From contig NZ_CP084319.1 in NCBI RefSeq assembly GCF_017352155.2, positions 1 through 64,000 of the forward strand: a DNA stretch of 64,000 bases, in the 5' to 3' direction. The position numbers and the translations under genes were made by a program. The first letter of the stretch is position 1; every line of letters starts with the position of its first letter. Source of the stretch: Haloterrigena alkaliphila. Lineage in GTDB: Archaea; Halobacteriota; Halobacteria; Halobacteriales; Natrialbaceae. Positions 11,530 to 52,619 of the stretch are shown here, one piece after another. The notes beneath the pieces are model-generated. The model was not told where the DNA came from. It made no database searches and saw nothing but the letters and a program-made list of their open reading frames with translations.

Positions 11530-11554
11530 GCTCAGGTAACGCACTGCGAAGTCG

Positions 11555-13092: not shown

Positions 13093-13146
13093 CCGTCCGG
13101 GTACTGCGGCCGTCCGTTTCGACCGTCGAGCGTCCCTGCCGTCAGT

Positions 13147-13156
13147 AATTATATTA
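13147..13156 (+). promoter_or_regulatory. TATA box of the hydroxyacyl-CoA dehydrogenase
   Basis: AATTATATTA lies about 40-48 nt before the ATG at 13195, which predicts a leader of roughly 15 nt. Confidence 0.5.
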
Positions 13157-13194
13157 CGGAGGGTCCAGATGGTAGTGGTGAGGGTTGACCTAGC

Positions 13195-14070
13195 ATGAAT
13201 ATTGCAGTCCTGGGAGCCGGAGCCATGGGCCACGGCATCGCCCATGTAAGCGCTCTCGGTGGACACTCAGTTATCGTTCGCGACGTCGAACAGGAACTCG
13301 TCGACGAGGGCCTCGAGCAGATCGAGATGAACCTCGAGGAAGGCATCGAGCGTGAGAAGATCACGCCGGCCCAGAAAGAGGATGCGATCGAGCGACTCAC
13401 CGGAACGGTCTCGCTTGAGGCGGCCGTCGAGGAGGCCGATCTCGTCATCGAAGCGGTGCCTGAACAGCTCGATATCAAGCAGGACGTGTTCGAGGACGTC
13501 GAGGAGTTCGCTCCCGACGATGCGATTTTGGCGACGAACACGTCGTCGCTGTCGGTGACGGAAATCGCGAGCGTTCTCGAGGATTCGTCCCGCTGTATTG
13601 GACTTCACTTCTTCAACCCGGCCCACATCATGCCGCTAGTGGAAATCGTCGTCGCGGAGCAGACGAGCGACGACACGAAGGAGTTCGCTGATCACTACGT
13701 CGAGAGCATTGAGAAGACACCGACGACTGTCAACGACGTACCTGGGTTCGCGTCGTCTCGCCTCGGCGCGATGTTCAGCCTCGAGGCGATCCAAATGGCT
13801 CAGGAGGGGGTGGCAAGCATCGAGGACATCGACGAGACGATGCGACTGGGATACAATCTCCCGATGGGACCAATCGAACTCGTTGACCACACTGGTATTG
13901 ATGTCAACGTCGAAGTGATGGAGTATCTCCGCGAAGAACTGGGTGAACGGTTCAAACCGCCTCAGTTACTGAAACGCAAGCTCCGGGCCGGGAAACTCGG
14001 CCGGAAGACCGGCGAGGGATTCTACGTCTGGGAGGACGGCGAGATTGTCGGTGTAAGCGGCGAGGATTAA
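13195..14070 (+). CDS. 3-hydroxyacyl-CoA dehydrogenase
   Basis: A 291-aa single-function enzyme oxidising (S)-3-hydroxyacyl-CoA to 3-oxoacyl-CoA with NAD+. It has the Rossmann GxGxxG (VLGAGAMGHGIAH) at the N-terminus, the acidic residue at the end of strand 2 (VIVRDVEQ), the catalytic-His region IGLHFFNPAHIMPLVEIV and the family signature DVPGFASSRLGAMF. The C-terminal dimerisation domain (RKLRAGKLGRKTGEGFYVW) is complete. There is no fused hydratase domain. It follows the thiolase/DUF35 operon in the same direction but has its own TATA box; together they supply the last two steps of beta-oxidation. Confidence 0.92.
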   Translation: MNIAVLGAGAMGHGIAHVSALGGHSVIVRDVEQELVDEGLEQIEMNLEEGIEREKITPAQKEDAIERLTGTVSLEAAVEEADLVIEAVPEQLDIKQDVFEDVEEFAPDDAILATNTSSLSVTEIASVLEDSSRCIGLHFFNPAHIMPLVEIVVAEQTSDDTKEFADHYVESIEKTPTTVNDVPGFASSRLGAMFSLEAIQMAQEGVASIEDIDETMRLGYNLPMGPIELVDHTGIDVNVEVMEYLREELGERFKPPQLLKRKLRAGKLGRKTGEGFYVWEDGEIVGVSGED

Positions 14071-14311: not shown

Positions 14312-15841
14312 TCACTTCAGATTCTCTTTGACGATCTTTCCGGTCGGATTGCGCGGCAGTTCGTCCCGGAACTCGATCTCGCGAGGTTTCTTGAAGTCGG
14401 CGATGCGATCGCCGACGTACTCCGCAACCTCCTCGGCGGTCATCGACGCTCCGTCGCGGAGGACGATGGCCGCTTTCACCCGTTCAGTCCACTCCTCGTC
14501 GGGAACGCCCACGACGGCTGCTTCCGAAATGCGCTCGTGTTCGTGCAGGACTTCCTCAATCTCGGCGGGGTGGATGTTCTCGCCACCGGAGATGATCATA
14601 TCGTCGTATCGACCGACGAAATAGAGGAATCCGTCTTCGTCTCGACGAACGAGGTCCGAGGACACGAAGTACCCGTCGTCGTCGAACACTTCCTCGGTCT
14701 TTTCCGGCATCCCGAGGTACTTCTCGAAGACGGTCGGCCCTCGATACGCGATTCGGCCGATCTCGCCGGGTTCGACTTCCTCACCGTTATCGCCGACGAT
14801 TTTGACGGCAACGTTGACGATCGGTTTGCCGATGCTATCCGGTTTTTCGAGGGCATTTTCCGGATCAAGCAGGCAGGTGACCGGTGACGTTTCAGTCTGT
14901 CCGAACACCTCGTAGAGGTTCGCGTCGAACGACTCGATGAGCTCCGCTTTGAGTTCCTCACCGGACGGGGCGGCGCCGGTCATGTAGTGCTCGAACGAGT
15001 CGATGTCGTAGTCCTCGAAGCCGTCCACGTTGAGAAGCGCACGACTCATCATCGGAACGAAAAAGGACCCGGTAATCTCCTCGGCATCGATGACCTCCAT
15101 CACGCGAACCGGATCGAAATCGTTTATCAGATACGTCGTCGAACCGCAGTAGAAGGTGTTGTTGAACAGCGCGAACGCGGCGATATGAAACAGCGGTGTG
15201 ACGACGAGGAATCGGTCCTTGTTCTCATCGAACTGACAGCTATACACCGTGTTTACGGAATTCTGGATGATGTTATCGTGGGTGAGGACGCAGCCTTTTG
15301 GCTTCCCAGTCGTTCCGCTCGTGTACATGAGGGCGGCGGCGTCGAGGCGATTTGGAACCACATCGATTCGATCGGTGGAAACACCATTACGAGCATCGTG
15401 GAATCCCTCGGCGAAGTCGGGGACGTCTGCGCCGAGGTAGAGGTAGTCGTCGATCTCCGTTTCGTCTTGCGCCGCGATGGACGAGATCGTTTCTCTCGCG
15501 TCGCTATCGAAGAGACAGAACGATGCGTTGCTGTCTCGGAGAACGTATCCCACTTCGTCGTCTTTGAACCGATGATTGATCGGTACCGGCAGAGCGCCGA
15601 GCTTCATCGCTGCGTAGTACGACTGAATCGTCTCCGGATGGTTTTGCATGTAGACCCCAACTCGATCACCTTCCGAGACGCCGCGGTCGGCAAGCACTTG
15701 AGCGATCTGATTCACCTGTTCGTCGAATTCGCGGAACGTGATCCGTTCTCGAGCCCCGTCGACGAGCGAAACGAGGCAGTCATCGCTCGGATACTTGCGC
15801 GCATTCGTCTCAGCGAGATCACCGAGAGTCAACCCTTCCAT
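14312..15841 (-). CDS. Acyl-CoA ligase (long/medium-chain type, paralogue of 51096)
   Basis: A 509-aa ANL-family ligase with a canonical phosphate loop MYTSGTTGKPKGCVLTHDN (about residues 172-190), VFGQTETSP (A5), YFVSSDLVRRDEDGFLYF (A7), GRYDDMIISGGENIHP (A8 hinge) and the terminal NPTGKIVKENLK with catalytic lysine. It aligns over its full length with the ligase at 51096 (shared GALPVPINHRFK, VPMMSRA, HYMTGAAPSGE-like blocks), so they are paralogues. It probably activates fatty or aryl-aliphatic acids. ATG 15841 lies 24-35 nt from a TATA box; a shared 23-bp element lies about 100 bp upstream. Confidence 0.9.
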   Translation of the reverse strand: MEGLTLGDLAETNARKYPSDDCLVSLVDGARERITFREFDEQVNQIAQVLADRGVSEGDRVGVYMQNHPETIQSYYAAMKLGALPVPINHRFKDDEVGYVLRDSNASFCLFDSDARETISSIAAQDETEIDDYLYLGADVPDFAEGFHDARNGVSTDRIDVVPNRLDAAALMYTSGTTGKPKGCVLTHDNIIQNSVNTVYSCQFDENKDRFLVVTPLFHIAAFALFNNTFYCGSTTYLINDFDPVRVMEVIDAEEITGSFFVPMMSRALLNVDGFEDYDIDSFEHYMTGAAPSGEELKAELIESFDANLYEVFGQTETSPVTCLLDPENALEKPDSIGKPIVNVAVKIVGDNGEEVEPGEIGRIAYRGPTVFEKYLGMPEKTEEVFDDDGYFVSSDLVRRDEDGFLYFVGRYDDMIISGGENIHPAEIEEVLHEHERISEAAVVGVPDEEWTERVKAAIVLRDGASMTAEEVAEYVGDRIADFKKPREIEFRDELPRNPTGKIVKENLK

Positions 15842-37787: not shown

Positions 37788-38789
37788 TCAGGGAGCGAGG
37801 GCCGTGTCCGCGAGGACGCGGTCGTGAAACCGCTCTGTCTCCGTCCGCCGGTCGGGCGGAAACAGGCACATGACGTGATCGACGCCGAGTTCCTCGAGCG
37901 CCCACAGACGCTCTCGACACGCCGGGGGCGGTCCCGCGACCGCGAAGCGATCGCCGAGGTATTCCCAAACTTCGTCGTTAATCTCGTCCAGTGCGTCGGC
38001 TTCCTCGTCGCCGTGCTCCTGCATGTCATGGGCGTCGACGAGCGCCCGGAGGTCCGCCTGCACGTCGTTCGGCGCTTCCTCGACGGAGAAGCTGAAGTTG
38101 TGGTAGGCGATCGGTTCGATGACCGGCTTCAGCTTCTCGACCGCGTCGGCCCGGCTCTCGGCCACGCAGGTCGGCGTGAGCGTCACGATATCGAGCTCGT
38201 CGAGCGACCGTCCGGCGTGCTCGGCTCCTCGGCGGACGTTCGCCAGTCCCAGCTCCGCGACTGTCTCGGGGTTCGGACCACCTCCGAAGATGACGCCGTC
38301 GGCGACCTCACCGGCCGCTCGCAGCGTCTTCGGCCCTTCGGCGGCCACGTAGACGTCGACGTCGCGCTGTCGTGACTCGAGCTGGAACGGCTCTCCGCCG
38401 AGCGTGACCTCTTCCCCGCGAAGCAGACGCCGCATTTTCTCGGCGCTCTCTGCTAGCTCGTCGACGGAAGCCGGTCGTTTGCCGACCGAGTAGACTGCAC
38501 TGTCGCCGGCTCCGACACCGAGTACTGCTCGGCCCTCGGAGAATTGGTCGAGGGAGGCAACGGCGTTAGCCGTCACCGACGGGTGTCGACTCTTCGGATT
38601 CGTAATGCCGGGCGCGAGCGTAAGCTCATCGGTGACCGTCGCACACGCCGTGAGCGTGACGTACAGATCGGTGTAGAGTTGCTGGGAGTCGATGGCCCAG
38701 AGGGCGTTCCAGCCCCACCGCTCTAGGGACCGGGCGTACTCGGTCGCGTCGTCGATCGAATCGGTGGCGACGAACCCGCCGAACTTCAT
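37788..38789 (-). CDS. F420-type LLM oxidoreductase, last gene of the hyuA-hyuB operon
   Basis: A 333-aa luciferase-like barrel: WNALWAIDSQQLYTDLYVTLTAC, LAPGITNPKSRHPSVTANAVAS, LGVGAGDSAVYSVGKRPA, VYVAAEGPKTLRAAGEVADGVIFGG. It is a paralogue of 35135. Its ATG overlaps the stop of the HyuB gene by 4 nt (ATGA), so it is co-translated with the Hyu subunits and probably works on the same metabolite. Coupling of an F420 oxidoreductase to a hydantoinase/carboxylase-type pair is unusual. Oxidising the Hyu substrate or product is the simplest guess. Confidence 0.85.
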   Translation of the reverse strand: MKFGGFVATDSIDDATEYARSLERWGWNALWAIDSQQLYTDLYVTLTACATVTDELTLAPGITNPKSRHPSVTANAVASLDQFSEGRAVLGVGAGDSAVYSVGKRPASVDELAESAEKMRRLLRGEEVTLGGEPFQLESRQRDVDVYVAAEGPKTLRAAGEVADGVIFGGGPNPETVAELGLANVRRGAEHAGRSLDELDIVTLTPTCVAESRADAVEKLKPVIEPIAYHNFSFSVEEAPNDVQADLRALVDAHDMQEHGDEEADALDEINDEVWEYLGDRFAVAGPPPACRERLWALEELGVDHVMCLFPPDRRTETERFHDRVLADTALAP

Positions 38790-40468
38790 GAGTCGTCGGC
38801 CGGATCATAGCCGTAGACCTCGCGGGCGCGTTCTTCCGTGATCAGGCCCTTCTCGACGTCCGCAGCGACGCGATCGGGGTCACGGTCCTCCGGATCGCCG
38901 AACCCGCCGGGTGTCGCGGAGACGAGCGTGAGCGTCTCGCCGGGCTCGAGCGTTCCGGGACCGTTCGGTGGAACCTCCTTGTTCTCGTCCGAGGAGTTCG
39001 TCGTCGCCCGTTTCCCCGACCGGCCCCCGCGGAAGCCCGAGGGGTCGCGGTCGGTACGACCGGACGTGAGCGCGAAGTAGACGGGGTGATCAGTCGGGTT
39101 GTGGTACGACGTCCGCATCGCCGGTCCGGAGCGGTGTTCGCCGGCGCCCTCCGTGTCGGGGACCAGTGCGGTCTCCTCCCAGCGGATGGGACTGTACCGC
39201 TCGAATATTTCGATCGGGGTGTTCTGTCCGTTGTACGGGAAGTAGACGCCCGGAATGCCGTCCTTGGTGGCGCTGGGGGGCATCCCCCCGGCCGTCCCGC
39301 CGACGGCGATGAACTCCTCGCCGTTCTCGTCGGCACCCGAGAAGGGTGCGAGCTGGATCCCCGCCATCTCCGAGAGCGCCGATTCGGGGACGACCTGTCC
39401 CAGCGCCCGGATGAGCGCGTCCTCCGCCCGCGAGTAGGTAAGGTGACGTCCCATTGTCGCCTTCGGTCGATCGCAGTTGAGGATCGATCCCTCGGGCGCA
39501 GTCACCTCGATCGGTCGGAAGAATCCCTCGGCGTTGGGCAGGTCCGGAACGAGCATGCACTTCACGATGTATTCGGTAATCGTGACGATGTTTCCAAACG
39601 GACAGTTGATCCCGCCGTCGACCTGCGCCGACGTCCCGTCGAAGTCGACCTCGAGTGCGTCGCCGTCGATCGTCGCGGCAACCCGTATCTCGAGGTCGTG
39701 GTCGGCGATGGTGAACTCGATCGAGTCCTCGTAGGTGCCGTCCGGGAGGTCGGCGAGTCGCTCGCGGAGCGCACGCTCGGTGCGATCGACGATCTCGTCG
39801 GCGACGCGGTCGAACGTGTCCGCGCCTCGTTCGTCGACGATTTCGCGAACGCGTTCCTCGCCGACCGTGTTCCCCGACCGCAGCGCCTCGAGGTCGCCCA
39901 TCGCCTGATGCGGGATCCGGACGTTGCTCCGGATGACGTCGTCGATCGCGTCGTTTCGCTCGCCGGCCTCGTAGAGCTTCGTTGGCGGAATCAGAATTCC
40001 CTCCTCGTAGACTTGCTCCGCGTCGGTCGACCAGCCGCCGCGGTTCCCGCCTACGTCATCGGTGTGACCGAGGCTCCCTACGATCGCGACGAGGTCGTCG
40101 TCGTGGAAGACGGGGTTCAGCACGACCACGTCCGAGAGGTGGCCGCCGCCGATCCAGGGATCGTTCGTGATTATCGTGTCACCTGGTTCCAGCGTCTCCG
40201 GCGGGAAGTGATCCTCGAGGATTAACCTCGTCGTCCGAGAGAGTGCCCCCGAGAGAACGGGGACGGACTGGTCGGAGAGTCCGATCGCGTCGCCGTCGGC
40301 GGTCATCACCGCCGTTGAGGCGTCTGCCGCCTCCCTGATGGAGAAGGAGTACGCCAGCCGTTCGGTCGCGTCGTACATCTCGTCGGCGGTCGCCTGGAGT
40401 CGGTTCCACAGGACCTGTGTCTCCAACCCCGCCGAATCGGTCGTCTCGGTGTTATCTGTCTCGGTCAT
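38786..40468 (-). CDS. HyuB-family protein (hydantoinase B / acetone carboxylase alpha-like), set 1
   Basis: A 560-aa member of the hydantoinase B/oxoprolinase C-terminal family. Recognisable are TIITNDPWIGGGHLSDVVVLNPVF, GHTDDVGGNRGGWS, IPPTKLYEAGERND and INCPFGNIVTITEYIVKCML, then GETLTLVSATPGGFGDPEDRD near the end. The metal-coordinating Asp/His of this family lie in the NDPW and HTDD segments. It starts within the stop of HyuA (ATGA) and ends overlapping the LLM gene. With HyuA it forms an ATP-dependent enzyme that opens a cyclic amide or carboxylates a ketone. No small zinc subunit accompanies this set, unlike set 2. Confidence 0.88.
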   Translation of the reverse strand: MTETDNTETTDSAGLETQVLWNRLQATADEMYDATERLAYSFSIREAADASTAVMTADGDAIGLSDQSVPVLSGALSRTTRLILEDHFPPETLEPGDTIITNDPWIGGGHLSDVVVLNPVFHDDDLVAIVGSLGHTDDVGGNRGGWSTDAEQVYEEGILIPPTKLYEAGERNDAIDDVIRSNVRIPHQAMGDLEALRSGNTVGEERVREIVDERGADTFDRVADEIVDRTERALRERLADLPDGTYEDSIEFTIADHDLEIRVAATIDGDALEVDFDGTSAQVDGGINCPFGNIVTITEYIVKCMLVPDLPNAEGFFRPIEVTAPEGSILNCDRPKATMGRHLTYSRAEDALIRALGQVVPESALSEMAGIQLAPFSGADENGEEFIAVGGTAGGMPPSATKDGIPGVYFPYNGQNTPIEIFERYSPIRWEETALVPDTEGAGEHRSGPAMRTSYHNPTDHPVYFALTSGRTDRDPSGFRGGRSGKRATTNSSDENKEVPPNGPGTLEPGETLTLVSATPGGFGDPEDRDPDRVAADVEKGLITEERAREVYGYDPADDS

Positions 40469-42537
40469 AGTTCGATGGTGATGTCGTAGTCGTCTGCCAC
40501 GGTCAGCGTCGAGTCCGGGTCGGCGACGACCGTCGTTTGGTCGGCCTCGACGACGACGGGACCGTCCACCGTCCGGCCCGCATCGAGGCCGTCCCAGTGG
40601 TAGACGTCGGTCGCGACGGTCCCGTAGTCGGGACCGAAGTAGACGTCGCGGCTGTCAGGTTCGGCGCTCCCGCCTTCGGGAGCGGTGAGCTGTGCTGTTT
40701 CGCCGGTTCCTGCCTCCTCTCTGAGTTCGAGTCGGTAGGTGAGCACCTCGACGGGGAACTCCAGCGTTTCGCGGTTGAACGTCTCTCGATAGGTGCGCTC
40801 GAACGCCTCCAGGGCGACATCAGGAGTCACGTCGCCGATATCGCAGTCCTCGAGGGGGACCTTGATCTCGTGGCCCTGATCGACGTGGCGCATGTCGAGG
40901 CTGAGAGATGCCTCGGTCGCGTCGGGATCGATGCCGGCCCGCTCGAGGACGGACGCGGCCTCCTCGCGCAGCGACTCGAACTGTTGTCGGAAGTCCTCGG
41001 CCGTGAGCGACGCGAGAACAGCCTGGCTCGTCGAGTTGGCCTCGTACATGCGCGGTGCTTCGGTGAGGCCGATCGATGAGCCGACGCCCGCACCGTACGG
41101 GCAGACGACCTCGTCGATGCCAAGCTTTCGGGCGACGCGGAACGCGTGCGAGGGACCAGCCCCGCCGAGGGCCGTCATCGAGAGCCCGCGAGTGTCGATC
41201 CCACGGGAGGCAGCGTAGCGGCGGAACGCCGTGGCCATGTTTTCGTTTACCACTTCGAATACCCGCCACGCGGCCTCGGTGACCGAAACCTCGAGTGGGT
41301 CCGCGAGCTCTTCGGCGAAGACGGTCTCGGTTTTCTCCGCGGCTAGGTCCATACGGCCGCCGTAGAAGTTCTCGGGGTTGAGGTAGCCGAGCAGGAGCGA
41401 CGCGTCCGTCACCGTCGGCTCCTCGCCGCCTTGATTGTAACAGATGGGGCCGGGATCGGATCCGGCGGACTCGGGGCCGACCTCGACGAGTCCGACGTCG
41501 TTCACCGAGGCGATCGAGCCGCCGCCTGCGCCGATCTCGGTGAGGTCGATCAGCGGCGAGATGAGGTCGTAGCCGCTGCCCTCCTTGAACCGGTGGACCC
41601 GAGCGACGTCGGCGGCGTACTTCATCCGGATGTCGCCGTCTTCGACGATCGATCCCTTCGCGGTGGTGCCGCCCATGTCGAACGAGAACACGTCGTCGTT
41701 CCCGTGTTTCTCACCGAAGATGCGCGATGCGAGGACGCCCGCTGCCGGACCGGACTCGACGAGGCGAACCGGCTCAGCCTTCGCCGTCCGCACGTCGACG
41801 ACGCCGCCGGACGACGTCATCATGTACACTTCACCTGCGAATCCCTCAGACTGCAACTCCGACTGGAGGTAGCTGAGGTAGTCCGCCACCACCGGCGCGA
41901 CGTACGCATTGATGACTGTCGTCGAGGTTCGCTCGTACTCCCTGATGACCGGAACGACGTCGGCGGATAGCGAGACGTTCAGATCGGGATACTCATCGTC
42001 GATGACTTCCGCCACGGCTCGCTCGTGGACGTCGGACTCGTAGGAGTGCAATAGCGAGACCGCTATCGAGTCGATGTCGTGATCCTCGACCAGCGTTCCT
42101 ACCCGCTCGCGTACCTCCTCGCGGTCGAGCGGTTCGACGACCTCGCCGTCGTCGTCCAGCCGTTCGTTCAACTCGAGGCGACGCTGCCGGGGGACCAGCG
42201 GATCGGGGTACTCCATCTCCCAATCGAACATGTCGTAGCGCGACCCGCGACGGAGCTGGAGCGTGTCGCGGATCCCGGCGGTCGTGAGCAGTCCCGTCGT
42301 CGCCCCCGTGCCCTCGATGAGCGTGTTCGAGACCAGCGTCGTACCGTGGATGACGCTGTCAATATCGTCGAACGAGACGCCGTTCTCGTCGAGTATTCGA
42401 CTGGCGCCGGTTAGGGCGCCCTCGGCCGGGTTCGCCGGCGTCGTCGGCTCCTTGTCGACGGTGACATCGCCCGACCGCTGATCGACCAGCGTGAAGTCGG
42501 TGAACGTCCCGCCGATATCTATGCCAAGTGTGTGCAT
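40465..42537 (-). CDS. HyuA-family protein (hydantoinase A / acetone carboxylase beta-like), set 1
   Basis: A 690-aa ASKHA-fold ATPase: phosphate loops LGIDIGGTFTDFTLVD and FSFDMGGTTAKGSIV, SHGTTL-type segment (VIHGTTLVSNTLIE), and TSSGGVVDVRTA with VESGPAAGVLASR. It activates the substrate by phosphorylation for the HyuB partner. ATG 42537 (MHTLGIDIGG) is chosen over a GTG at 42561. The 166-bp gap to the upstream phosphotransferase gene suggests a separate promoter, though all genes from 45533 to 37788 run the same way. True hydantoinase, oxoprolinase and carboxylase functions cannot be separated by reading. Confidence 0.88.
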   Translation of the reverse strand: MHTLGIDIGGTFTDFTLVDQRSGDVTVDKEPTTPANPAEGALTGASRILDENGVSFDDIDSVIHGTTLVSNTLIEGTGATTGLLTTAGIRDTLQLRRGSRYDMFDWEMEYPDPLVPRQRRLELNERLDDDGEVVEPLDREEVRERVGTLVEDHDIDSIAVSLLHSYESDVHERAVAEVIDDEYPDLNVSLSADVVPVIREYERTSTTVINAYVAPVVADYLSYLQSELQSEGFAGEVYMMTSSGGVVDVRTAKAEPVRLVESGPAAGVLASRIFGEKHGNDDVFSFDMGGTTAKGSIVEDGDIRMKYAADVARVHRFKEGSGYDLISPLIDLTEIGAGGGSIASVNDVGLVEVGPESAGSDPGPICYNQGGEEPTVTDASLLLGYLNPENFYGGRMDLAAEKTETVFAEELADPLEVSVTEAAWRVFEVVNENMATAFRRYAASRGIDTRGLSMTALGGAGPSHAFRVARKLGIDEVVCPYGAGVGSSIGLTEAPRMYEANSTSQAVLASLTAEDFRQQFESLREEAASVLERAGIDPDATEASLSLDMRHVDQGHEIKVPLEDCDIGDVTPDVALEAFERTYRETFNRETLEFPVEVLTYRLELREEAGTGETAQLTAPEGGSAEPDSRDVYFGPDYGTVATDVYHWDGLDAGRTVDGPVVVEADQTTVVADPDSTLTVADDYDITIEL

Positions 42538-42703
42538 ATATCGTCCGTTAGGGGCGTCCACGGACGGTCCGATATATGTTGTGGTCTGGTAACAGGATTC
42601 AACTGGGCGGTCGAGGCAACGCTATCGGGATTTTCGGGCATCCAGGCGAGGAATGCTGACGGCCGAGTTACGCGTCGGAGTTGCGCGCTCGCGTCGATCG
42701 AGA

Positions 42704-43771
42704 TCAGAGCCGGTCGCCTTCGATTATTTCGAGGAGGTCCTCGATCAGTCCCGGAATCGGATACTGGAACCAGGCGTTGCGGACATCGTCGCTCGACCCT
42801 GTCTTGTACTGGTGGGCGCCCCAACAGCAGATCGTCAGCATAACGAACGCGGAGAAGGCCTGCCAGTATCGGACGCGCTCCCGATCGACAGTCCGTCCCG
42901 TCCGGCGTTCGTACTCGTCGTAGAACCACTCCCGCTCGAGCAGCGAACAGGCGAGTTCGGGTCGTTCGATCGGCTCGACGAGTTTTCCAGCGAAGTATCG
43001 GGTGCTCGCGTAGCCGAGATCGAACAGCGGATCGCCAACGCGGGCGAACTCCCAGTCGAGGAGTCCAGTGATTTCGTCACCGTCGACGAGAGCGTTACCA
43101 ATCCGGAAGTCACCGTGAATCAGCGTCGTCTCCGGGACCGTCGGTTCGTTCGCGCGGAACCAGCGGATCGCCTCCTCGACCGCCGGCTCCCGTTTCAGCT
43201 CGGCAGTCCGGTAGAGCTCCTCCCAGCGGTCGATCTCGCGTGAGACCACCTCGTCGGCCGGTACGTCCTCGATCCCCGGGACCGCCGCACCGTCGATCGA
43301 GTGCACTCCCGCTGCGGCGTCGACAAACTGGTCGGGGAGCTTGCGGTCTGAGGAATCCCACGCATCGTACAATTCCTGTCGATCCCGCGGATCCCACGTG
43401 ATCGGCGGTTCACCCTCGAGGTGGTCCATGACGAAGAGTCCGCGATCGAACGGGCCGCCGTCCGCGTCAAACCAGCGAACCCGCGGCACAGGGACAGGGG
43501 CGTCCTGGGCTGCCGCCACCGTTTCGTATTCCGTCTCGATGTCGTTCCCGGGCAGGGCCGCATTGTCGGCGTCGTGCTGGAGTTCGTTCTCGGCCCGCAG
43601 GACCAGTCGATCGGACTGGTCGTCGCCGTTCTCGCGGTAGTGGGCCGTGAACGATACCGTGTCTCGGGACCACCCCTCGGTGTGTGCGACGACGTCGTCG
43701 ACGGACACCGGTCCGTCTGTGAACGACCCTGAGAGGTACTCTTCGAGAGCGTCGGAGGAAAACTCAGTCAT
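42704..43771 (-). CDS. APH-fold kinase, LvaA/ACAD11-type 4-hydroxyacyl-CoA kinase candidate
   Basis: A 355-aa aminoglycoside-phosphotransferase-fold protein. It has the catalytic loop LIHGDFRIGNALV (HxDxxxxN), the metal site GLLDWEFARVGDPLFDL, and a nucleotide-binding N-lobe (GWSRDTVSFTAHYRE, LVLRAENE). Family members next to an acyl-CoA dehydrogenase and a small DUF6285-type protein include LvaA of the Pseudomonas levulinate pathway, which phosphorylates 4-hydroxyacyl-CoA; in mammals the same kinase is fused to the dehydrogenase in ACAD10/11. Here it overlaps the small protein by 4 nt, and a dehydrogenase gene starts the operon, so the Lva-like role is a strong inference. Antibiotic resistance is unlikely. 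Confidence 0.82.
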   Translation of the reverse strand: MTEFSSDALEEYLSGSFTDGPVSVDDVVAHTEGWSRDTVSFTAHYRENGDDQSDRLVLRAENELQHDADNAALPGNDIETEYETVAAAQDAPVPVPRVRWFDADGGPFDRGLFVMDHLEGEPPITWDPRDRQELYDAWDSSDRKLPDQFVDAAAGVHSIDGAAVPGIEDVPADEVVSREIDRWEELYRTAELKREPAVEEAIRWFRANEPTVPETTLIHGDFRIGNALVDGDEITGLLDWEFARVGDPLFDLGYASTRYFAGKLVEPIERPELACSLLEREWFYDEYERRTGRTVDRERVRYWQAFSAFVMLTICCWGAHQYKTGSSDDVRNAWFQYPIPGLIEDLLEIIEGDRL

Positions 43772-44247
43772 TCCTCACCCTCTCGACCGAGGAGATGCAG
43801 CTGTCGGTCAACGCGCGTTCGCAGGAAGTCGTACATCGGTCGACGGGCGAGTGCGGCCCGCTCCCCGTCGAGTTCCCGATCGATCGCGGTCAGTACGTCG
43901 TCGGCGGCGGGCAGGAGCGTTTCCTCGAGGGTTCGTGTCGGTTCGTCCGCGCCGGCAACGTCGTCGCGGGCACCGTCGACCGCAGTGCGTACCGCAGTCG
44001 AATCGATCTCGTTCCGCTCGAGGACCGCCTCGAGTTCGTCCAGACACTCGTCAAGGGCACGACGTTGGTCACGAACGGCCGTCTCCCGTCCGTCGATCTC
44101 CCCTGCGAGGAACTGGAGCGTCGACGCCATCGAACCGACCTGGGCGTGGACGAACTCGTCGACGCCATCGTCGACAGCGGGTCGGATTTCCTCGCGGGTG
44201 AACGTGGCGAATCGGTCCAGTATGAGCTCCGGATCGAGGTATGGCAT
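43768..44247 (-). CDS. Small LvaB/DUF6285-like partner of the kinase
   Basis: A 159-aa, helical, very acidic protein (FTREEIRPAVDDGVDEFVHAQVGSM begins the first helices; ends FLRTRVDRQLHLLGREGEE). The first part resembles DUF6285: an E-x-x-P start, then an F-x-x-x-V helix and a following LAGEI. Residues 60-130 are a charged insert not expected in the short bacterial versions. In the levulinate system LvaB is a small protein required for LvaA kinase activity. The ATGA overlap with the kinase and the place between kinase and dehydrogenase fit that. No enzymatic motif is seen. Family assignment is tentative. Confidence 0.65.
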   Translation of the reverse strand: MPYLDPELILDRFATFTREEIRPAVDDGVDEFVHAQVGSMASTLQFLAGEIDGRETAVRDQRRALDECLDELEAVLERNEIDSTAVRTAVDGARDDVAGADEPTRTLEETLLPAADDVLTAIDRELDGERAALARRPMYDFLRTRVDRQLHLLGREGEE

Positions 44248-44300
44248 ACCGTGGTATATTACGCGACCGTTACAAATAACTGCGGGTTGGCTCCGTCTCG

Positions 44301-45533
44301 CTACCCGAGGTAGCCGAAGAGGTGGCCGGCGACGTTGCGTTTCTGGATTTCCTCCGAGCCCTCGGTGATCCGGTAGCGCCGATGGTGCCGGTAGATGTGT
44401 TCGAATGGTTCGTGGCGGGTATACCCCTTCCCGCCGTGGACCTGCATCGCCCTGTCGGCGGCGTCGCAGGCCAGTAGGTTCGCACGGTAGTTCGCCATCG
44501 ATACCTTATCGCTGACGCTCTGTTGACTGTCCTCGTCCAGTTGCCACGCCGTCTTGTAGACGAGGTTTCGCACCATCTCGGCTTCCGTGTGCAGGTCGGC
44601 CAGCGGGAACTGGATTCCCTGTCGCTTTGAGAGCGGTTCGTCCCATGTGTGGCGCTCCTTCGCGTACTCGACGGCCCGGTCGACGCAGTACTGGGCCGCC
44701 CCGACGCTCGAGGCGGCCTGCCTGATGCGGCCCTCGTGGACGAAGTACGACGCCTGCTGGAGCCCTTTCCCCTCCTCACCTAGGATCGCGTCCTCGGGGA
44801 CGCGGACGTCGTCGAGGGTCACCTCGGCGTGGTCCGTAGGCATGTTGAACGTCCAGTGGAAGTAGTCGACCTCTAGCCCGTCCGTATCCGTCGGGACCCA
44901 GAACGCCGTGATGCCCTCGTGATCGCCGTCGTCGCCGTCGGTGCGAGCGAAGACGACATCGTAGTCAGCGGTGTGCATCCCGCTGTTGTACCGCTTTGCT
45001 CCGTTGATCACCCACTCGTCGCCGTCCCTCTCGGCGGTCGTATCCATGTGCGTCGCGTCGCTACCGTGCTCCGGTTCTGTCAGGCCGAACGCTGCGGTCG
45101 TCTCGCCGGTGATTAAGTCCTCGAGGTGGCGCTCCTTCCGCTCCTCGCTACCGAACTCGATTAGCAGTTCGGGCACGTTGAAGTTCCCGACCACGGCCGC
45201 CTCCTGCTGCAAGACATTGTGGAGGCCGATCCCCTTCCTCGCGAGGTGTTCTCGGATCACCGCCATCCCGAGGTTGCTCCCGTCTCGCCCGCCGTACTCC
45301 TCCGGGAGCATGTACCGGTACAGTCCCGCCTCATCGGCGCGACGGCGCATCTCCTCGAGTAGCGCCTCCCACTCGGCCGTCGGCGTGCCATCCTCCCAGT
45401 TTGTGCGCGCGTCCTCGCGGCGGTGATCGAAGAATCGTTCGTGCTCTTGCTGGAGCGGTTCGATTTCGTCTTCGATGAACGCGTCTATCTCGTCGAGCAA
45501 CTGCTGGAGCTGCTCCGGGATCCGGAAGTCCAT
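44301..45533 (-). CDS. Acyl-CoA dehydrogenase, LvaC/ACAD10-11-like candidate
   Basis: A 410-aa acyl-CoA dehydrogenase. The FAD motifs LTEPEHGSDATHMD and WVINGAKRYNSGMHTADYD carry the SDAT and x-SG forms seen in ACAD10/11 (elsewhere NAPY or SNSP in this window), and the HEGRIRQAASSVG helix is ACAD11-like too. The catalytic-base loop is still the ordinary ITEGSEEIQKR and not the ADGPDEVH form I associate with ACAD11. It would act on 4-phosphoacyl-CoA by elimination/rehydration, giving 3-hydroxyacyl-CoA, if the Lva model holds. It is 53 nt before the small protein. ATGs at 45545 and 45560 are alternative starts. Confidence 0.82.
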   Translation of the reverse strand: MDFRIPEQLQQLLDEIDAFIEDEIEPLQQEHERFFDHRREDARTNWEDGTPTAEWEALLEEMRRRADEAGLYRYMLPEEYGGRDGSNLGMAVIREHLARKGIGLHNVLQQEAAVVGNFNVPELLIEFGSEERKERHLEDLITGETTAAFGLTEPEHGSDATHMDTTAERDGDEWVINGAKRYNSGMHTADYDVVFARTDGDDGDHEGITAFWVPTDTDGLEVDYFHWTFNMPTDHAEVTLDDVRVPEDAILGEEGKGLQQASYFVHEGRIRQAASSVGAAQYCVDRAVEYAKERHTWDEPLSKRQGIQFPLADLHTEAEMVRNLVYKTAWQLDEDSQQSVSDKVSMANYRANLLACDAADRAMQVHGGKGYTRHEPFEHIYRHHRRYRITEGSEEIQKRNVAGHLFGYLG

Positions 45534-45692: not shown

Positions 45693-46490
45693 ATGTCCGG
45701 ATTCGTGAGATCGGAAGACGAAATCGAAGCGATTCAGGAGCGAATGGCGGAGAACAGATTTTACGACGCGACGCAGGTAGCGATCCAGTTCCGTACTCGA
45801 GAGTCGATAGTCGACCGCATCCTCCCGCCCGGTTTGGAGCCGACCGAGGAGCCGGTGGTACGGGTCGACGTCGTCGACGTCGGACGCAGTAACTGCGTCG
45901 GCTCGTTCCTCGGGGCTGGCGTCTACGTGCGGGCTCATCACGACGGTCACGTCGGCGAGTACTGTCTTACAATGCCGATGTCGACCGAAGCCGCGATCAC
46001 GTGGGGACGGGAGCTGTTCGGCGAACCGAAGAAAAAGGCCACCATCTCGCTCGAGCGGAGCGGAAACGAGGTGAGAGGACGGGTGTCCCGGAGCGGCGAG
46101 TCGCTCATCGAGATAGACGCAACCATGGAAACGGAACACCAGCCCGATCCGAACCCGCAGACGATCTACCACTACAAATCGCTCCCTGACGCAACCGGGC
46201 GGGGGTTCCAGTTCGATCCGACGCTGGTCCGCGTCACGCTAGACACCGACCTTCACGCGTACGAATCCGGATCTGGCTCGCTTTCGCTGGGAACGGGTCC
46301 CGACAATCCCCTCGGCGAACTCGAGATCGAGGAGATTCTGGGAGCGGCGTACACCGAAGCGAACCTCCACTCGAGGCAGGAGAACGTGACCACCGTCGAC
46401 CCCGAATCGTTCCTTCCGTACGCCTACGGGACCGGGCGCACCAATAACTGGCTCGAGTTGGATACTCTGTCCGACGCCCCTGACCGATGA
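45693..46490 (+). CDS. Acetoacetate decarboxylase-family protein
   Basis: A 265-aa protein of the ADC beta-barrel family. The Schiff-base lysine region is FGEPKKKATISLE (Lys113-115), matching the GxPKK of clostridial acetoacetate decarboxylase. EYCLTMPMSTEAAITWGREL precedes it and a late beta-strand region (VRVTLDTD) closes the barrel. It may decarboxylate acetoacetate or a longer 3-oxoacid, or be one of the family's hydratase/aldolase variants. It lies 147 bp before HyuA set 2 in the same direction, close to a candidate ketone carboxylase whose reaction would be the reverse; another use of the fold is therefore possible. Confidence 0.82.
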   Translation: MSGFVRSEDEIEAIQERMAENRFYDATQVAIQFRTRESIVDRILPPGLEPTEEPVVRVDVVDVGRSNCVGSFLGAGVYVRAHHDGHVGEYCLTMPMSTEAAITWGRELFGEPKKKATISLERSGNEVRGRVSRSGESLIEIDATMETEHQPDPNPQTIYHYKSLPDATGRGFQFDPTLVRVTLDTDLHAYESGSGSLSLGTGPDNPLGELEIEEILGAAYTEANLHSRQENVTTVDPESFLPYAYGTGRTNNWLELDTLSDAPDR

Positions 46491-46637: not shown

Positions 46638-48728
46638 ATGGGATACCTATGCAACGTCGATACCGGCGGTACCCATACCGACGCTGTCGTCATCGACGAC
46701 GACGGAGCGGTGACGGAGGCAAAAGCCCCGTCCACGCCGGACGACTTCTCACGGGGATTTTTCAACTCCCTGGAAGTCGCAGCGGAGAAGTTGGGCGTAT
46801 CGCTCGAGGTCCTGCTGTCGAACACCGACCTCGTCTCCCACGGGACGACCGTCGGGACCAACGCCATCATCGAGGGGGAGGGGACCCGCGCAGGACTGGT
46901 CACGACTCGCGGTGCCGAGGATGTCCTGTTCATCATGCGGGCCGCCGCGGGGCGGTCGACGGGACTTCCGACCGAGGAAGTGCTCCGGTTTCAGGAGTCG
47001 ACGAAACCCGACCCCATCGTCCCCAAACGCCGTGTTGAGGGCATTGACGAACGAATTGACTGTATGGGCGAGACGGTCGTCGAGTTCAACGAGGACCGCG
47101 CCCGCGAAGCTGCTCGCGAGCTCGCCGACAAGGGCGTCGATTCGGTAGCGATCAGCTTTCTCTGGTCGTTCCTGGACGCCTCGCACGAGGATCGAATGGC
47201 GGCCATTCTCGAGGAGGAGCTCGACGACGCGTTCATCACCCAATCGTCGGAACTCATCCCGAAGTGGGGCGAGTACGAACGAACTGCCGCCACGGCCATC
47301 AACGCCTACATCGGGCCGACGACCGCCGAGTACATTCGGAAGATCGACGACCGCCTGGCGGAAGTCGGTTACGATGGGACGCTGCTGGTCATGCAGTCCG
47401 GCGGTGGCGTGATGTCGGCCGAGGACGCGGTCGACGAGCCTCTTCGGACGATCGATTCCGGACCGGTCGGCGGACTGATCGGCTGTCAGTACCTCGCCGA
47501 ACAGCTCGGACACGACGACGTCATCGCCGGTGATATGGGCGGCACGAGTTTCGACATCGGGCTGCTCACCGACGGCGAGCCGCTGACCGAGCCGACGAAC
47601 GTGATCAACCAGTATGAATATATGATGCGGACGATCACGACGGAGTCGATCGGATCCGGCGGGGGCTCCATCGCCACAGCCGATACCCGGGCCGACCGAC
47701 TGCAAGTCGGACCGCAGTCGGCGGGGGCCGACCCCGGACCGGCCTGCTACGGCCAGGGCGGTACCGAACCGACGGTGACGGACGCGGACCTGCTGCTCGG
47801 CTTCCTCGACGAGGAGGACTTCCTCGGCGGCCGCATGACGCTCGACGTCGACCGGGCGCGTGGCGCCGTCGAGCCAGTCGCCGACGATCTCGGCATGGAC
47901 GTCATGGAAGCTGCGAGCGGAATCGTCCGAATCGCCAACGCGAAGATGGCCGATATGATCCGACAGCGGACCGTCAACGAGGGCCACGACCCGCGGAACT
48001 TCGTCATGTACGCCTATGGTGGCGCGGGACCGCTACACGTGCCCTCGCTGGCCCCCCAGCTCGGTATCGACGAGGTCGTGATCCCCGGCGGCTCGACCGC
48101 GTCGGTCTGGTCGGCGGTCGGCGTCTCGTCGTCGGACGTCCTTCACCGAGAGGAGATCTCGGACATCAGATCCGCACCGTTCGATCCGTCGGCGATTACG
48201 GCCCAGTTTCGGAGCCTCGAGGACGACGTCCGGAGCGACCTCCGCGATGAGGGGTTCGACGACAACGAGATCGACGTCGACCGGTATGCGGACCTCCGCT
48301 ATCAGGCGCAGGTCCATCAACTGTCGGTTCCAGTCCCGAATGGAACGCTCGACGAGGACGATATGGACGCGGTCATCGACCGATTCGAGCGCGCTTACGA
48401 GGACCGATACGGCGAGGGGGCGGGCTACAGCGAGTCCGGCTTCGAACTCGTCACGATCCGCTGTGATGGGTACGGTGAGACGGTCAAGCCGGACCTCGAG
48501 ACGTCCATGGCGGATGACGAGCCCGAACCGCGACGGACGACCGATGTGTACTGGCCCGACGAGGGCCGGTTTGTCGAGACACCGCGGTACCACGACGACG
48601 ACGTCGGCCCGGGCGCACGTCTCGACGGCCCGGCCGTCGTCGCCATGGAGCATACGACGATCGCGATTCCGCCCGGCGATCGCTGCGAGATCGACCACCT
48701 CAACAACTACGTGATCACCAATGAGTGA
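46638..48728 (+). CDS. HyuA-type subunit of a ketone (acetone/acetophenone-type) carboxylase, set 2
   Basis: A 696-aa ASKHA ATPase: LCNVDTGGTHTDAVVID, VSHGTTVGTNAIIE, VMQSGGGVMSAEDA, TIDSGPVGGLIG, GDMGGTSFDIGLL. It is followed by HyuB with an 8-nt overlap and by a small zinc subunit, the order of acetone carboxylase (AcxA-AcxB-AcxC) and close to the acetophenone carboxylase core. It should phosphorylate bicarbonate and/or the ketone enolate at the cost of ATP. The sequence differs from set 1 (VDTGGTHTD versus IDIGGTFTD; unrelated middle), so the two sets are not recent duplicates. Confidence 0.87.
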   Translation: MGYLCNVDTGGTHTDAVVIDDDGAVTEAKAPSTPDDFSRGFFNSLEVAAEKLGVSLEVLLSNTDLVSHGTTVGTNAIIEGEGTRAGLVTTRGAEDVLFIMRAAAGRSTGLPTEEVLRFQESTKPDPIVPKRRVEGIDERIDCMGETVVEFNEDRAREAARELADKGVDSVAISFLWSFLDASHEDRMAAILEEELDDAFITQSSELIPKWGEYERTAATAINAYIGPTTAEYIRKIDDRLAEVGYDGTLLVMQSGGGVMSAEDAVDEPLRTIDSGPVGGLIGCQYLAEQLGHDDVIAGDMGGTSFDIGLLTDGEPLTEPTNVINQYEYMMRTITTESIGSGGGSIATADTRADRLQVGPQSAGADPGPACYGQGGTEPTVTDADLLLGFLDEEDFLGGRMTLDVDRARGAVEPVADDLGMDVMEAASGIVRIANAKMADMIRQRTVNEGHDPRNFVMYAYGGAGPLHVPSLAPQLGIDEVVIPGGSTASVWSAVGVSSSDVLHREEISDIRSAPFDPSAITAQFRSLEDDVRSDLRDEGFDDNEIDVDRYADLRYQAQVHQLSVPVPNGTLDEDDMDAVIDRFERAYEDRYGEGAGYSESGFELVTIRCDGYGETVKPDLETSMADDEPEPRRTTDVYWPDEGRFVETPRYHDDDVGPGARLDGPAVVAMEHTTIAIPPGDRCEIDHLNNYVITNE

Positions 48729-50700
48729 CAGCCAGCACACCGGTTCCGACATTTGGGAGGACTTCACGAGCGGATACGTACCTGACGAGGAGCTCGACGT
48801 TCATCCGAGCCTCTCGCTGCACGCGAAAGCCAACGATGATATTGACCCCGTCACTCACGAAGTCCTCAGGCATCGGTTGTACAGCATCAACGAAGAGCAC
48901 GGCCAGACCCTAGAGAACGTCTCCGGGTCGCCGGTCGCCTACTACGCGCAGGACTTCAACCCGACCATCCTCGCCGAGGACGGCGAGGTCATCTTTCAGG
49001 GGCCGTACATTCAGTTCTTCTCGCCGATCGCGGAGCTACAGGTCAAGTGGATCCTCGAGAATCGTTCGGACAATCCCGGAATCGAGCCCGGGGACGTGTT
49101 CCTTGCGAACGACCCCTGGATCGGTGCGACCCACCAGCCCGACGTCCACTTCATCGCTCCGGTCTTCGAGGACGGCGAGCTCTTCGCCTGGGTCGTCAAC
49201 ACGCTCCATCAGTACGACATCGGCGGTATCGATCCCGGCAGCTTCTGTCCAGGTGCTGATGACGTCTTCCACGAACCGTCGCCGATTCCGCCCATTAAGA
49301 TCGTCGAAGGCGGTGAACGTCGCGAGGACCTCCGACAGCTCTATCTACGCCAGTCGCGGCTCCCGCAGATGGTGGGTCTCGACTTCAACGCACAGCTGGC
49401 CGGCGTCAACGTCGCCCGCGACCGCCTGACTGAGGTCGTCGACGAGTACGGTGCGTCGACCGTCAAGGGCGTTATGCGCGACGTGCTCGACGACGCGGAG
49501 CGGTCGTTCACCGAGAAGCTCGAGACGATTCCCGACGGCACGTGGCGCGCCCGCGGATACATGGACGGGTCGCAGACGGGCGATACCGACCTCTACGTAG
49601 GCCAGGTGCAGTTGACCAAGGAGGGTGACACGCTCACGTTCACGAACGAGGGAACGGAAGACGAGGCCGGTGCGATGAACCTCACGTACGCCGGATTCCG
49701 GACCGCGATCATGAGCGTGTTGAACCCGATGATGATGTATGACGCGATGTGGGTCGCCGGCGGCGCGCTGCGACACATCGATATCGAGACGACGCCCGGC
49801 ACGTTCACCCACGCCGAGTGGCCCTCGGCCGTCTCGACCGGCGGGCAGATCGGCATCGAGTTCGCTATCTGTCTCATCAACGACGTCGTCGCTCGGATGC
49901 TCGCGTCCTCCGACGAACACAAGCGGGACATCATCAACGGAACCCACGAGTCATCGGGCGCCGTCGCACAGGCCGGTATCGACCAGTGGGGCGACGAGTT
50001 CGGGACGATGAACCTCGACTGCATGGGTCTCGGCGGCGTCGGTGCCTCTCCTCACAAGGACGGCATCGACACCGGCGGAGCCTACTGGGCCCCGAAGGCG
50101 CCGATCCCGAACATGGAGCACAACGAACAGGACTACCCGATCCTGTACCTCTACCGGGACGAAGTTCCCGACTCCGGGGGTGCCGGCGAGTTCCGCGGCG
50201 GCGTCGGGATGCACTACTGCTGGATCCCTCACAACACGTCGCAGATCGAGAACGTGCTCGCCGGCGTTGGCGGGGCGGTGCCGCTCTCGCGCGGCGTCTC
50301 CGGTGAGCCGGGCGCCACGCTTCGCCCTAGAATCGTCCGCGATTCGGACATCGAATCACGCCTCGAGGCCGGGGAGATTCCCGAGCGAGCGACCGACGCC
50401 GAGGGAGCAGTGGCGAAACTGCCCTCGAAGTCCTACGACACGCAGGAACCCGACGACATCTGGGAGGTCCGGACCGCGGGGTCGCCGGGATACGGCGACC
50501 CGCTCGAACGCGATCCGGAGGACGTTGCCGAAGACGTCCGGAACGGATACGTCTCGGAGTCGGTCGCCGCCGACACCTACGGCGTGGTGCTGACGGAGGC
50601 GGGCGGACGAATCGTGTCCGACCTCGATGCGACAGCTGACCGGCGAGACGAACTGCGCGACGAACGACTCGCGAACAGCACGATCCCAGCGGAGAACTGA
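48721..50700 (+). CDS. HyuB-type large subunit of the ketone carboxylase, set 2
   Basis: 659 aa, 100 longer than HyuB set 1. Motifs are PGDVFLANDPWIGATHQPDVHFIAP, NTLHQYDIGGIDPGSFCPG, IPPIKIVEGGERRED and SAVSTGGQIGIEF, with C-terminal VRTAGSPGYGDPLERDPE. The family metal site lies around the ND and HQPD/HQYD segments. The start ATG overlaps the HyuA stop by 8 nt. An N-terminal extension (GYVPDEELDVHPSLSLHAKAND) is absent in set 1 and is typical of carboxylase alpha subunits. Expected product: a 3-oxoacid from a methyl ketone plus bicarbonate. Confidence 0.87.
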   Translation: MSDSQHTGSDIWEDFTSGYVPDEELDVHPSLSLHAKANDDIDPVTHEVLRHRLYSINEEHGQTLENVSGSPVAYYAQDFNPTILAEDGEVIFQGPYIQFFSPIAELQVKWILENRSDNPGIEPGDVFLANDPWIGATHQPDVHFIAPVFEDGELFAWVVNTLHQYDIGGIDPGSFCPGADDVFHEPSPIPPIKIVEGGERREDLRQLYLRQSRLPQMVGLDFNAQLAGVNVARDRLTEVVDEYGASTVKGVMRDVLDDAERSFTEKLETIPDGTWRARGYMDGSQTGDTDLYVGQVQLTKEGDTLTFTNEGTEDEAGAMNLTYAGFRTAIMSVLNPMMMYDAMWVAGGALRHIDIETTPGTFTHAEWPSAVSTGGQIGIEFAICLINDVVARMLASSDEHKRDIINGTHESSGAVAQAGIDQWGDEFGTMNLDCMGLGGVGASPHKDGIDTGGAYWAPKAPIPNMEHNEQDYPILYLYRDEVPDSGGAGEFRGGVGMHYCWIPHNTSQIENVLAGVGGAVPLSRGVSGEPGATLRPRIVRDSDIESRLEAGEIPERATDAEGAVAKLPSKSYDTQEPDDIWEVRTAGSPGYGDPLERDPEDVAEDVRNGYVSESVAADTYGVVLTEAGGRIVSDLDATADRRDELRDERLANSTIPAEN

Positions 50701-51001: not shown

Positions 51002-51095
51002 ATCAACCGCTCCGGCGAAGTAGCGCGGTCCTCGGCGTCAACAGGCGTCTGGACTGAACCATACTCTTTTGTCGGATGTTATCGTCTACCAGCGT

Positions 51096-52619
51096 ATGAA
51101 CGGGCTTACCGTCGGCTACCTCGCGGAACGGAACGCGAGAACCCAGCCGGACGCCGAGGCGATCGTACAACGAGAGGGCGGCGAGCGGACCGAAACCGTG
51201 ACATTCGAGGCGTTCAACCGTCGGATCGACCGCCTCGCGAACGCGCTCGCCGACCGGGGAATCGAAGCGGGCGACACCGTCGCGACGTACACGGGGAATC
51301 GGATCGAAACCGTCGAGAGCTATCTCGCGGCGATGAAACTCGGCGCCCTGCCGGTACCGATCAACCACCGGTTCAAGGCCGGTGAGGTGAGCTACGTCCT
51401 CGAGGACAGCGACGCGACGCTGTGTATCTTCGACGAGGCGGGTCGCGAGGCGATCACCGGCGTCCACGAGGAGTTCGACGCGTCCGTCGGAGAGTACCTG
51501 TACGTCGGCGAATCGACGCCGGACTTCGCGAACGACTACGAGGCGGTTCGGAGCGGCGCGTCCGCCGATCCCGTCGAGGTCGTCCCGTCCCGATACGACG
51601 ACGCAGCCATCATGTACACGAGCGGAACGACCGGGAAGCCGAAGGGGTGCGTGCTCACTCACGACAACATCGTTCAGGCCGCGGAGAACTCACTCTACGA
51701 AGTAAACCTCTCCCGGGACGCCCGATTTATGGTCGTGACGCCGCTGTTCCACATCGCCGCACTCGGGCTGTTCATGATGGCGTTTTACGTCGGCGGAACG
51801 ACGATCCTGGTCGACGACTTCGAGCCGGTGTCGGTCCTCTCGATTCTCGAGGAGGAGTCGGTGACGGCATCGTTCATGGTCCCGATGATGAGTCGCGCGG
51901 TGCTCGGGGCCGATCCCGGGGCGTACGATCTCTCGCAGTTCGAGCACTACATGACCGGTGCGGCGCCGTCCGAGCGATCGCTCAAGAAGGAGATCATCGA
52001 GACCTTCGACTGCAAGCTCTACGACGTCTTCGGCCAGACTGAACTGTCTCCCTCGACGACGATGCTGCGTCCGGAGAACGTCCTCGAGAAACCCGAAACG
52101 GTGGGTCGGCCGATCATCAACGTCGAAGTCAAGGTCGTCGACGAAACCGGCGACGAGGTCGACCCTGGCGAAATCGGGCGGATCGCGTACCGCGGTCCGA
52201 CGGTGTTCAAGGAGTACTACGGGATGCCTGAGAAGACCGCAGAGGTGTTCGACGACGGCTGGTTCATCTCCGACGACCTCGTTCGGATCGACGACGATGG
52301 CTTCGTCCATTTCGTCGGCCGAGCCGACGACATGATCATCACCGGCGGTGAGAACGTCCACCCCGCTGAGATCGAGGAGGTCCTCCACGAACTCGAGGGC
52401 GTGGACGAGGTCGCGGTCGTCGGCGTCCCCGACGACCAGTGGGGCGAGCGAGTGAAGGCCGTCGTCGTCCCCGAAGACGGGGGTGCGCTGACCGAGGACG
52501 ACGTCGTCGGCCACGTTGAGTCGAACCTGGCTGGGTTCAAGAAGCCCCGCGAGGTCGAGTTCCGGGACCAACTGCCGCGGAACCCGACTGGAAAGGTCCT
52601 GAAGAGCGAACTCGCCTGA
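51096..52619 (+). CDS. Acyl-CoA ligase (paralogue of 14312)
   Basis: A 507-aa ANL ligase: IMYTSGTTGKPKGCVLTHDN, VFGQTELSPSTTM (A5), WFISDDLVRIDDDGFVHF (A7), GRADDMIITGGENVHP (A8), NPTGKVLKSELA with catalytic lysine. It is 94 bp downstream of the carboxylase subunits and in the same direction, so it may activate their 3-oxoacid product (as the benzoylacetate-CoA ligase does in acetophenone degradation). A TATA-like CATACTCTTTT lies about 30 nt before ATG 51096, so it may also be transcribed alone. It is a full-length relative of the ligase at 14312. Confidence 0.9.
   Translation: MNGLTVGYLAERNARTQPDAEAIVQREGGERTETVTFEAFNRRIDRLANALADRGIEAGDTVATYTGNRIETVESYLAAMKLGALPVPINHRFKAGEVSYVLEDSDATLCIFDEAGREAITGVHEEFDASVGEYLYVGESTPDFANDYEAVRSGASADPVEVVPSRYDDAAIMYTSGTTGKPKGCVLTHDNIVQAAENSLYEVNLSRDARFMVVTPLFHIAALGLFMMAFYVGGTTILVDDFEPVSVLSILEEESVTASFMVPMMSRAVLGADPGAYDLSQFEHYMTGAAPSERSLKKEIIETFDCKLYDVFGQTELSPSTTMLRPENVLEKPETVGRPIINVEVKVVDETGDEVDPGEIGRIAYRGPTVFKEYYGMPEKTAEVFDDGWFISDDLVRIDDDGFVHFVGRADDMIITGGENVHPAEIEEVLHELEGVDEVAVVGVPDDQWGERVKAVVVPEDGGALTEDDVVGHVESNLAGFKKPREVEFRDQLPRNPTGKVLKSELA

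Follow-up and report, generated by a model that had tools for sequence, protein, structure and literature searches.

Does a haloarchaeon carry its own version of the LvaABC system, in which a kinase, a small partner protein, and an acyl-CoA dehydrogenase process 4-hydroxyacyl-CoA? The question is raised by three adjacent genes in a 64,000-nucleotide (nt) stretch of Haloterrigena alkaliphila DNA (contig NZ_CP084319.1, positions 1 to 64,000; hereafter the window), which an initial annotation, made from the sequence alone, read as an LvaABC-like set. The enzymes of this phosphorylation route for hydroxy acids were assigned only between 2017 and 2025, in Pseudomonas and mammals. As that annotation stated, the three genes are intact, same-strand open reading frames, all on the minus strand: KIN (42704..43771), a kinase of the APH fold with 355 amino acids (aa); SMALL (43768..44247), a 159-aa protein in the position of LvaB/DUF6285; and ACAD (44301..45533), a 410-aa acyl-CoA dehydrogenase with all three ACAD domains (N, M, and C). 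The kinase assignment holds (Pfam APH, PF01636, E 5e-27), with the catalytic motifs HGDFRIGN and LLDWEFA intact, and so does the 4-nt overlap between SMALL and KIN, which has the form ATGA. We find that the kinase, its small partner, and the dehydrogenase are a true conserved unit. Judged by its sequence, the dehydrogenase is a member of an uncharacterised subclass of its own and not of the LvaC type. With an LvaA-side kinase and a small partner next to a dehydrogenase that falls outside the LvaC clade and lacks the LvaC signature, the locus is an LvaABC-like module whose third enzyme is of another kind.

In a survey of 293 genomes of the order, with ortholog thresholds of E<1e-60 for KIN and E<1e-120 for ACAD, orthologs of KIN, SMALL, and ACAD were each present in seven genomes, the identical seven, and in none elsewhere. 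These genomes span five genera and three families; the probability that two such seven-genome sets coincide by chance is 3e-14 if genomes are taken as independent, although the genomes here are related. Of 15 loci, 14 retain an overlap between SMALL and KIN, either 4 or 8 nt long. Since the same seven genomes hold all three genes and the short overlap recurs, the linkage of the trio goes beyond chance. Gene order varies: ACAD, SMALL, and KIN are collinear in Natrinema, ACAD is divergent from SMALL-KIN in Halomarina and others, and Natronolimnohabitans has SMALL-KIN-ligase with ACAD convergent. There are two exceptions to close linkage. KIN and SMALL lie ~12 kb apart in N. gelatinilyticum, the sole member of the KIN clade with a non-adjacent small-protein gene, and one of two module copies in genome G238 has no ACAD ortholog inside 10 kb. 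In genome G252, contig C2 carries two copies of the module at separate places: one is intact, and the second (L030:5344-13899) has decayed, with broken frames of ACAD, SMALL, KIN, and HyuA. An AMP-forming acyl-CoA ligase (LIG; 51069..52619, plus strand), which in the window is divergent from the trio and 5.5 kb from it, is probably a fourth member of the module: homologs with 54-88% identity occur in all seven module genomes, near the trio at most loci, and in Halomarina, among others, they adjoin KIN or ACAD. The window also holds a second acyl-CoA ligase (14312-15841, minus strand) with 59% identity to LIG, and similar paralogs are found in other module genomes.

The dehydrogenase departs from the known enzymes at the active site. 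In ACAD11, R626, H634, and R637 bind phosphate and D753 takes the place of the usual glutamate; these residues define LvaC, ACAD10, and ACAD11, and substitutions at them abolished the activity of the dehydrogenase domain, so that the phospho-intermediate stays unprocessed (PMC12440821). All LvaC proteins from lva operons and all ACAD11-like controls had R/R/H/R/D at positions 626/631/634/637/753. The window ACAD has F/R/Q/S/E, the orthologs checked have the same pattern with S, A, or G at 637, and four of four signature residues are thus missing. In alignments, the active-site helix FVHEGRIRQAAS (44709..44744, minus strand) corresponds to R....R..HCMR of LvaC, and the catalytic Glu391 lies inside TEGSEEIQ, where LvaC-type proteins have Asp753. 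The initial annotation had itself raised the ordinary EGSEEIQ loop as an objection, correctly; the ACAD10/11-like FAD (flavin adenine dinucleotide) motifs to which it appealed are not diagnostic. No curated NCBIfam equivalog model scored above its cut-off for this protein. The subclass has features of its own. A block containing Glu391, HIYRHHRRYRITEG, is invariant in 12 of 12 orthologs from archaea, Nocardia, Sulfitobacter, and QY30, and the basic block of the window ACAD (FEHIYRHHRRYRITE; 44361..44405, minus strand), whose last residue is Glu391, is identical in all 12. It was not seen in LvaC-type or other ACADs compared, and residues 378-390 have a net charge of +6, where the other ACADs in the comparison have about +2. 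His235 is invariant in both the window subclass and the LvaC group and rare elsewhere. The LvaC/ACAD11 clade was supported 100/100 in trees, with the window ACAD outside it; approximately unbiased (AU) tests did not reject the window subclass as its sister (p-AU 0.44 and 0.52), a result that weakens the view of ACAD as an ordinary dehydrogenase unrelated to LvaC.

The kinase stands closer to the lva system. KIN has 26% identity to LvaA, and an unrooted tree of 32 kinases is split 100/100 into 21 with an adjoining small-protein gene and 11 without one. On the small-partnered side are LvaA, the Sulfitobacter and Nocardia kinases with DUF6285, KIN, and two groups with other orphan small proteins; on the other side are the ACAD11-associated kinases and KIN2, an ACAD11-like kinase of haloarchaea (likeness to the ACAD11 kinase domain: E 6e-50 for KIN2 versus 1.6e-9 for KIN). 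Phylogeny thus places the kinase with LvaA as expected, although in a clade of its own (100/100) and not inside the LvaA clade proper, where LvaA and the kinases of Sulfitobacter and Nocardia form one group (100/99); the corresponding expectation for the dehydrogenase fails. In Rhodobacterales and Rhodococcus, related APH kinases are overlapped or abutted by members of two further orphan small-protein families, neither DUF6285 nor SMALL (L019:7911-9433, L137:9923-11457, L018:7977-9361, and L138:9899-11259), and in Sulfitobacter alexandrii the ACAD next to the orphan-partnered kinase is of the LvaC/ACAD11 type. Related kinases are therefore paired with small partners of at least four families, mutually without detectable similarity.

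SMALL had been described as DUF6285-like, and this part of the proposal was not borne out. It matched no Pfam or NCBIfam family, and a search of 43768-44247 with the hidden Markov model of DUF6285 (PF19802) gave no match; the positive controls were real LvaB (4.8e-24; the gene annotated lvaB in our lva reference, P. aeruginosa plasmid p12939-PER, L022), a Sulfitobacter protein (5e-22), and a Nocardia protein (3e-12). A search for DUF6285 that did pick up two of its control genomes found the family in none of the 391 Halobacteria genomes covered. The SMALL family comprises nine loci among 84,980 prokaryotic species, all in Halobacteria, and its matches in plasmids are haloarchaeal only. The predicted structure of SMALL is a five-helix bundle (predicted local distance difference test score, pLDDT, of 88), and a fold search of this model against the PDB returned nothing significant (best E 0.39). 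Every sequence-level test of a DUF6285 identity for SMALL was negative: the Pfam and NCBIfam searches, BLAST, the profile-profile comparisons (two), and the class-wide family search. We found no paper in the open literature that names DUF6285.

The trio is not a purely haloarchaeal module, an idea that is overturned by bacterial orthologs of the window ACAD in Nocardia farcinica (63% identity), Rhodobacteraceae QY30 (59%), and Sulfitobacter pontiacus plasmids (57%). In S. pontiacus the operon runs ligase-kinase-DUF6285-ACAD (L134:15005-19332) and is headed by a ligase with 34% identity to LIG; in N. farcinica the order is DUF6285-kinase-ACAD (L135, about 10690-13236), with the same ATGA overlap. 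By analogy, kinases and DUF6285 beside these ACAD orthologs suggest that SMALL is a functional counterpart of LvaB, and they are the best support for that role. The S. pontiacus plasmid pDSM110277_b (L134) holds LvaC-type and window-subclass ACADs and three APH kinases in one cluster. The kinase-plus-ACAD arrangement thus comes in at least two forms, and the active site of the ACAD subclass in the second differs from that in the first.

Genes elsewhere in this genome, among them full-signature ACADs and ACAD11-like kinases, fit the pathway first proposed for the trio better than the trio does. Among 21 ACAD matches to LvaC in this genome (G000), two, both chromosomal, have the full LvaC/ACAD11 signature (C1:2427798-2429003, L060, and C1:3725197-3726414, L061), and two KIN2 kinases are encoded at C2:65555-66610 (L062) and C1:240826-241878 (L063). 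The former of these kinase genes belongs to the same catabolic island as the trio, ~22 kb away from it and 1.5 kb past the end of the window. LvaC-type ACADs occur in 53 of 116 haloarchaeal genomes sampled, and exactly those 53 have a strong KIN2 match (Fisher 7e-30, uncorrected for relatedness); three additional genomes have weak KIN2 matches (40-42%). In 21 genomes the two genes lie less than 400 bp apart and face opposite ways on the two strands, and ~12 more genomes have them no farther than 9 kb from each other; the motifs were present in 30 of 30 loci checked. On Haloferax mediterranei pHME132 they are divergent neighbours (L020:6596-9023) with the full signature. The haloarchaeal pair comes without DUF6285, and all seven module genomes also carry LvaC-type ACADs. 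A genuine LvaC/ACAD11-type pair is thus widespread in haloarchaea, and to judge from these motifs and neighbourhoods the 4-hydroxyacyl-CoA pathway probably exists there at loci other than the trio; we found no archaeal report of an LvaC/ACAD11-type pathway in the open literature.

For the trio itself, we lean modestly toward a reading in which it forms, together with the ligase, a CoA-thioester module with an LvaAB-like first half and a different second half. We infer each catalytic step, and a KIN-SMALL complex, along the following lines. The ligase would activate an acid to its CoA ester, as its family suggests; KIN with bound SMALL would use ATP to phosphorylate a hydroxyl of the acyl-CoA, as LvaA-LvaB does, in keeping with the kinase phylogeny and the gene architecture. 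The flavin-dependent ACAD would then act on this substrate or on something closely derived from it, Glu391 serving as the alpha-proton base. It may handle a phosphorylated or otherwise anionic acyl-CoA by an arrangement other than LvaC's Arg/His/Arg phosphate site, which its pocket lacks, or it may, within this pathway, perform an ordinary alpha,beta-desaturation. A later account of the original work on P. putida (PMC6692424, which cites Rand et al. 2017) reports that LvaB came down with LvaA in a pull-down and that the two proteins turned 4-hydroxyvaleryl-CoA into 4-phosphovaleryl-CoA. What survives of the LvaABC-like set in the initial annotation is a conserved unit with an LvaA-side kinase and with bacterial ACAD orthologs beside LvaA-like kinases and DUF6285; an ACAD of the LvaC/ACAD10/11 clade and a recognisable DUF6285 protein do not survive.

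Several observations weigh against the module reading. SMALL has no BLAST similarity to real LvaB or to bacterial DUF6285, and hhalign gave probabilities of 0.5% with five LvaB-type proteins and 1.6% with seven DUF6285 proteins. These profile alignments are shallow, so remote homology to DUF6285 may still exist; the faint 1.6% alignment pairs the first two helices. Because SMALL is without detectable similarity to LvaB or DUF6285, it is position that assigns its role. In the basic block of ACAD, R382, R385, and R388 are also common in ordinary ACADs, which leaves H379, H383, H384, and R386 as the distinctive residues. The solved structures nearest to ACAD are ordinary butyryl/short-chain dehydrogenases, so the enzyme may be a plain desaturase. 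Nothing links the trio specifically to levulinate or 4-hydroxyacyl-CoA, and the initial suggestion of a route for levulinate, gamma-lactones, and other 4-hydroxy acids finds no footing in our results. We offer a bolder version of the module reading tentatively, as possible rather than probable: ACAD would found a subclass of flavoenzymes that process phosphoacyl-CoA, with the phosphate held by H379, H383, H384, R386, and R271 instead of by the Arg/His/Arg site of LvaC. Its partner would be an LvaAB-type kinase in Actinobacteria, Alphaproteobacteria, and haloarchaea, and the last of these would have replaced DUF6285 by a five-helix protein that is unrelated or has diverged beyond recognition.

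Other explanations give the same genes different work. A complete haloarchaeal LvaABC, in which 4-hydroxyacyl-CoA is phosphorylated and the phosphate eliminated to yield 2-enoyl- or 3-hydroxyacyl-CoA for growth on levulinate and gamma-lactones, would fit the position of KIN on the LvaA side, the ATGA overlap that is also seen in lva operons, and an ACAD subclass that may be sister to LvaC and has the invariant His235 in common with it. We nevertheless consider it improbable, since the window ACAD has F, Q, S, and E in place of R626, H634, R637, and D753, the orthologs checked are likewise without these four residues, substitutions of them inactivated the ACAD11 dehydrogenase domain (PMC12440821), and two full-signature ACADs and two ACAD11-like kinases are available elsewhere in the genome. 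The product of KIN and SMALL could instead be processed in trans by these chromosomal LvaC-type ACADs, while the neighbouring ACAD would carry out an ordinary desaturation before or after that step of the same catabolic route. The presence of LvaC-type ACADs in seven of seven module genomes, when the class sample as a whole has them in 53 of 116, speaks for this explanation, as does an LvaC-type ACAD inside the same island in Natronolimnohabitans and Salinadaptatus. However, LvaC-type ACADs already have a kinase of their own, KIN2, with which their co-occurrence is perfect, and therefore need no second one, and the module ACAD co-occurs just as perfectly with KIN; we regard this route as unlikely. 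APH kinases have many substrates, and the surroundings of the trio include hydantoinase/carboxylase-like pairs, a 2-oxoacid dehydrogenase, and an LIV-type transporter, so KIN might act on a small alcohol or sugar and be linked to the other genes only by a shared catabolic island. This we judge quite improbable, because kinase, small protein, this ACAD, and ligase recur in archaea and bacteria amid different neighbours.

On either side of the trio lies a hydantoinase/oxoprolinase A-B pair (38786-42561, minus strand, and 46638-50700, plus strand); the named models closest to them, caprolactamase and acetophenone carboxylase, all scored far under cut-off. An acetoacetate-decarboxylase-family gene (45693..46490, plus strand), divergent from ACAD, is retained in Natrinema and lies 9 kb away in Halomarina; we treat it as peripheral. 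Further neighbours are a luciferase-like oxidoreductase, the 2-oxoacid dehydrogenase, and the branched-chain (LIV)-type transporter. Gene neighbours of the module vary by lineage and point to no particular substrate.

Of the known systems, the lva operon, known from Pseudomonas putida, is like the window in its APH kinase with a 4-nt overlap to a small partner gene, its adjoining ACAD, its CoA ligase, and the kinase superclade. It differs in its DUF6285 protein, in its signature-bearing LvaC, and in gene order, which is kinase-small protein in lva and small protein-kinase in the window; of the companions known from lva, the ligase LvaE and the 4-oxoacyl-CoA reductase LvaD, an acyl-CoA ligase is conserved with the window set, to which no LvaD-type reductase could be tied. 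The Sulfitobacter and Nocardia operons have the same ACAD subclass (57-63% identity, identical basic block), a kinase of the small-partnered superclade, a small partner, and, in Sulfitobacter, a ligase. Their kinases, however, are nearer to LvaA and their small protein is a true DUF6285; these operons are themselves uncharacterised and consist of annotated or unannotated genes only. Mammalian ACAD10 and ACAD11 (PDB 8v3u and 2wbi) provide the general model of kinase and ACAD chemistry on hydroxyacyl-CoA, but there the two are fused, the kinase is KIN2-like and lies on the other side of the tree, and the dehydrogenase has RxxxxRxxHCMR and an Asp base, all absent from the window ACAD. The LvaC-type ACAD and KIN2 of H. 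mediterranei pHME132 are likewise a linked haloarchaeal kinase and dehydrogenase; with the full LvaC/ACAD11 signature, an ACAD11-like kinase, and no small protein, they correspond to the known pathway better than the haloarchaeal trio does.

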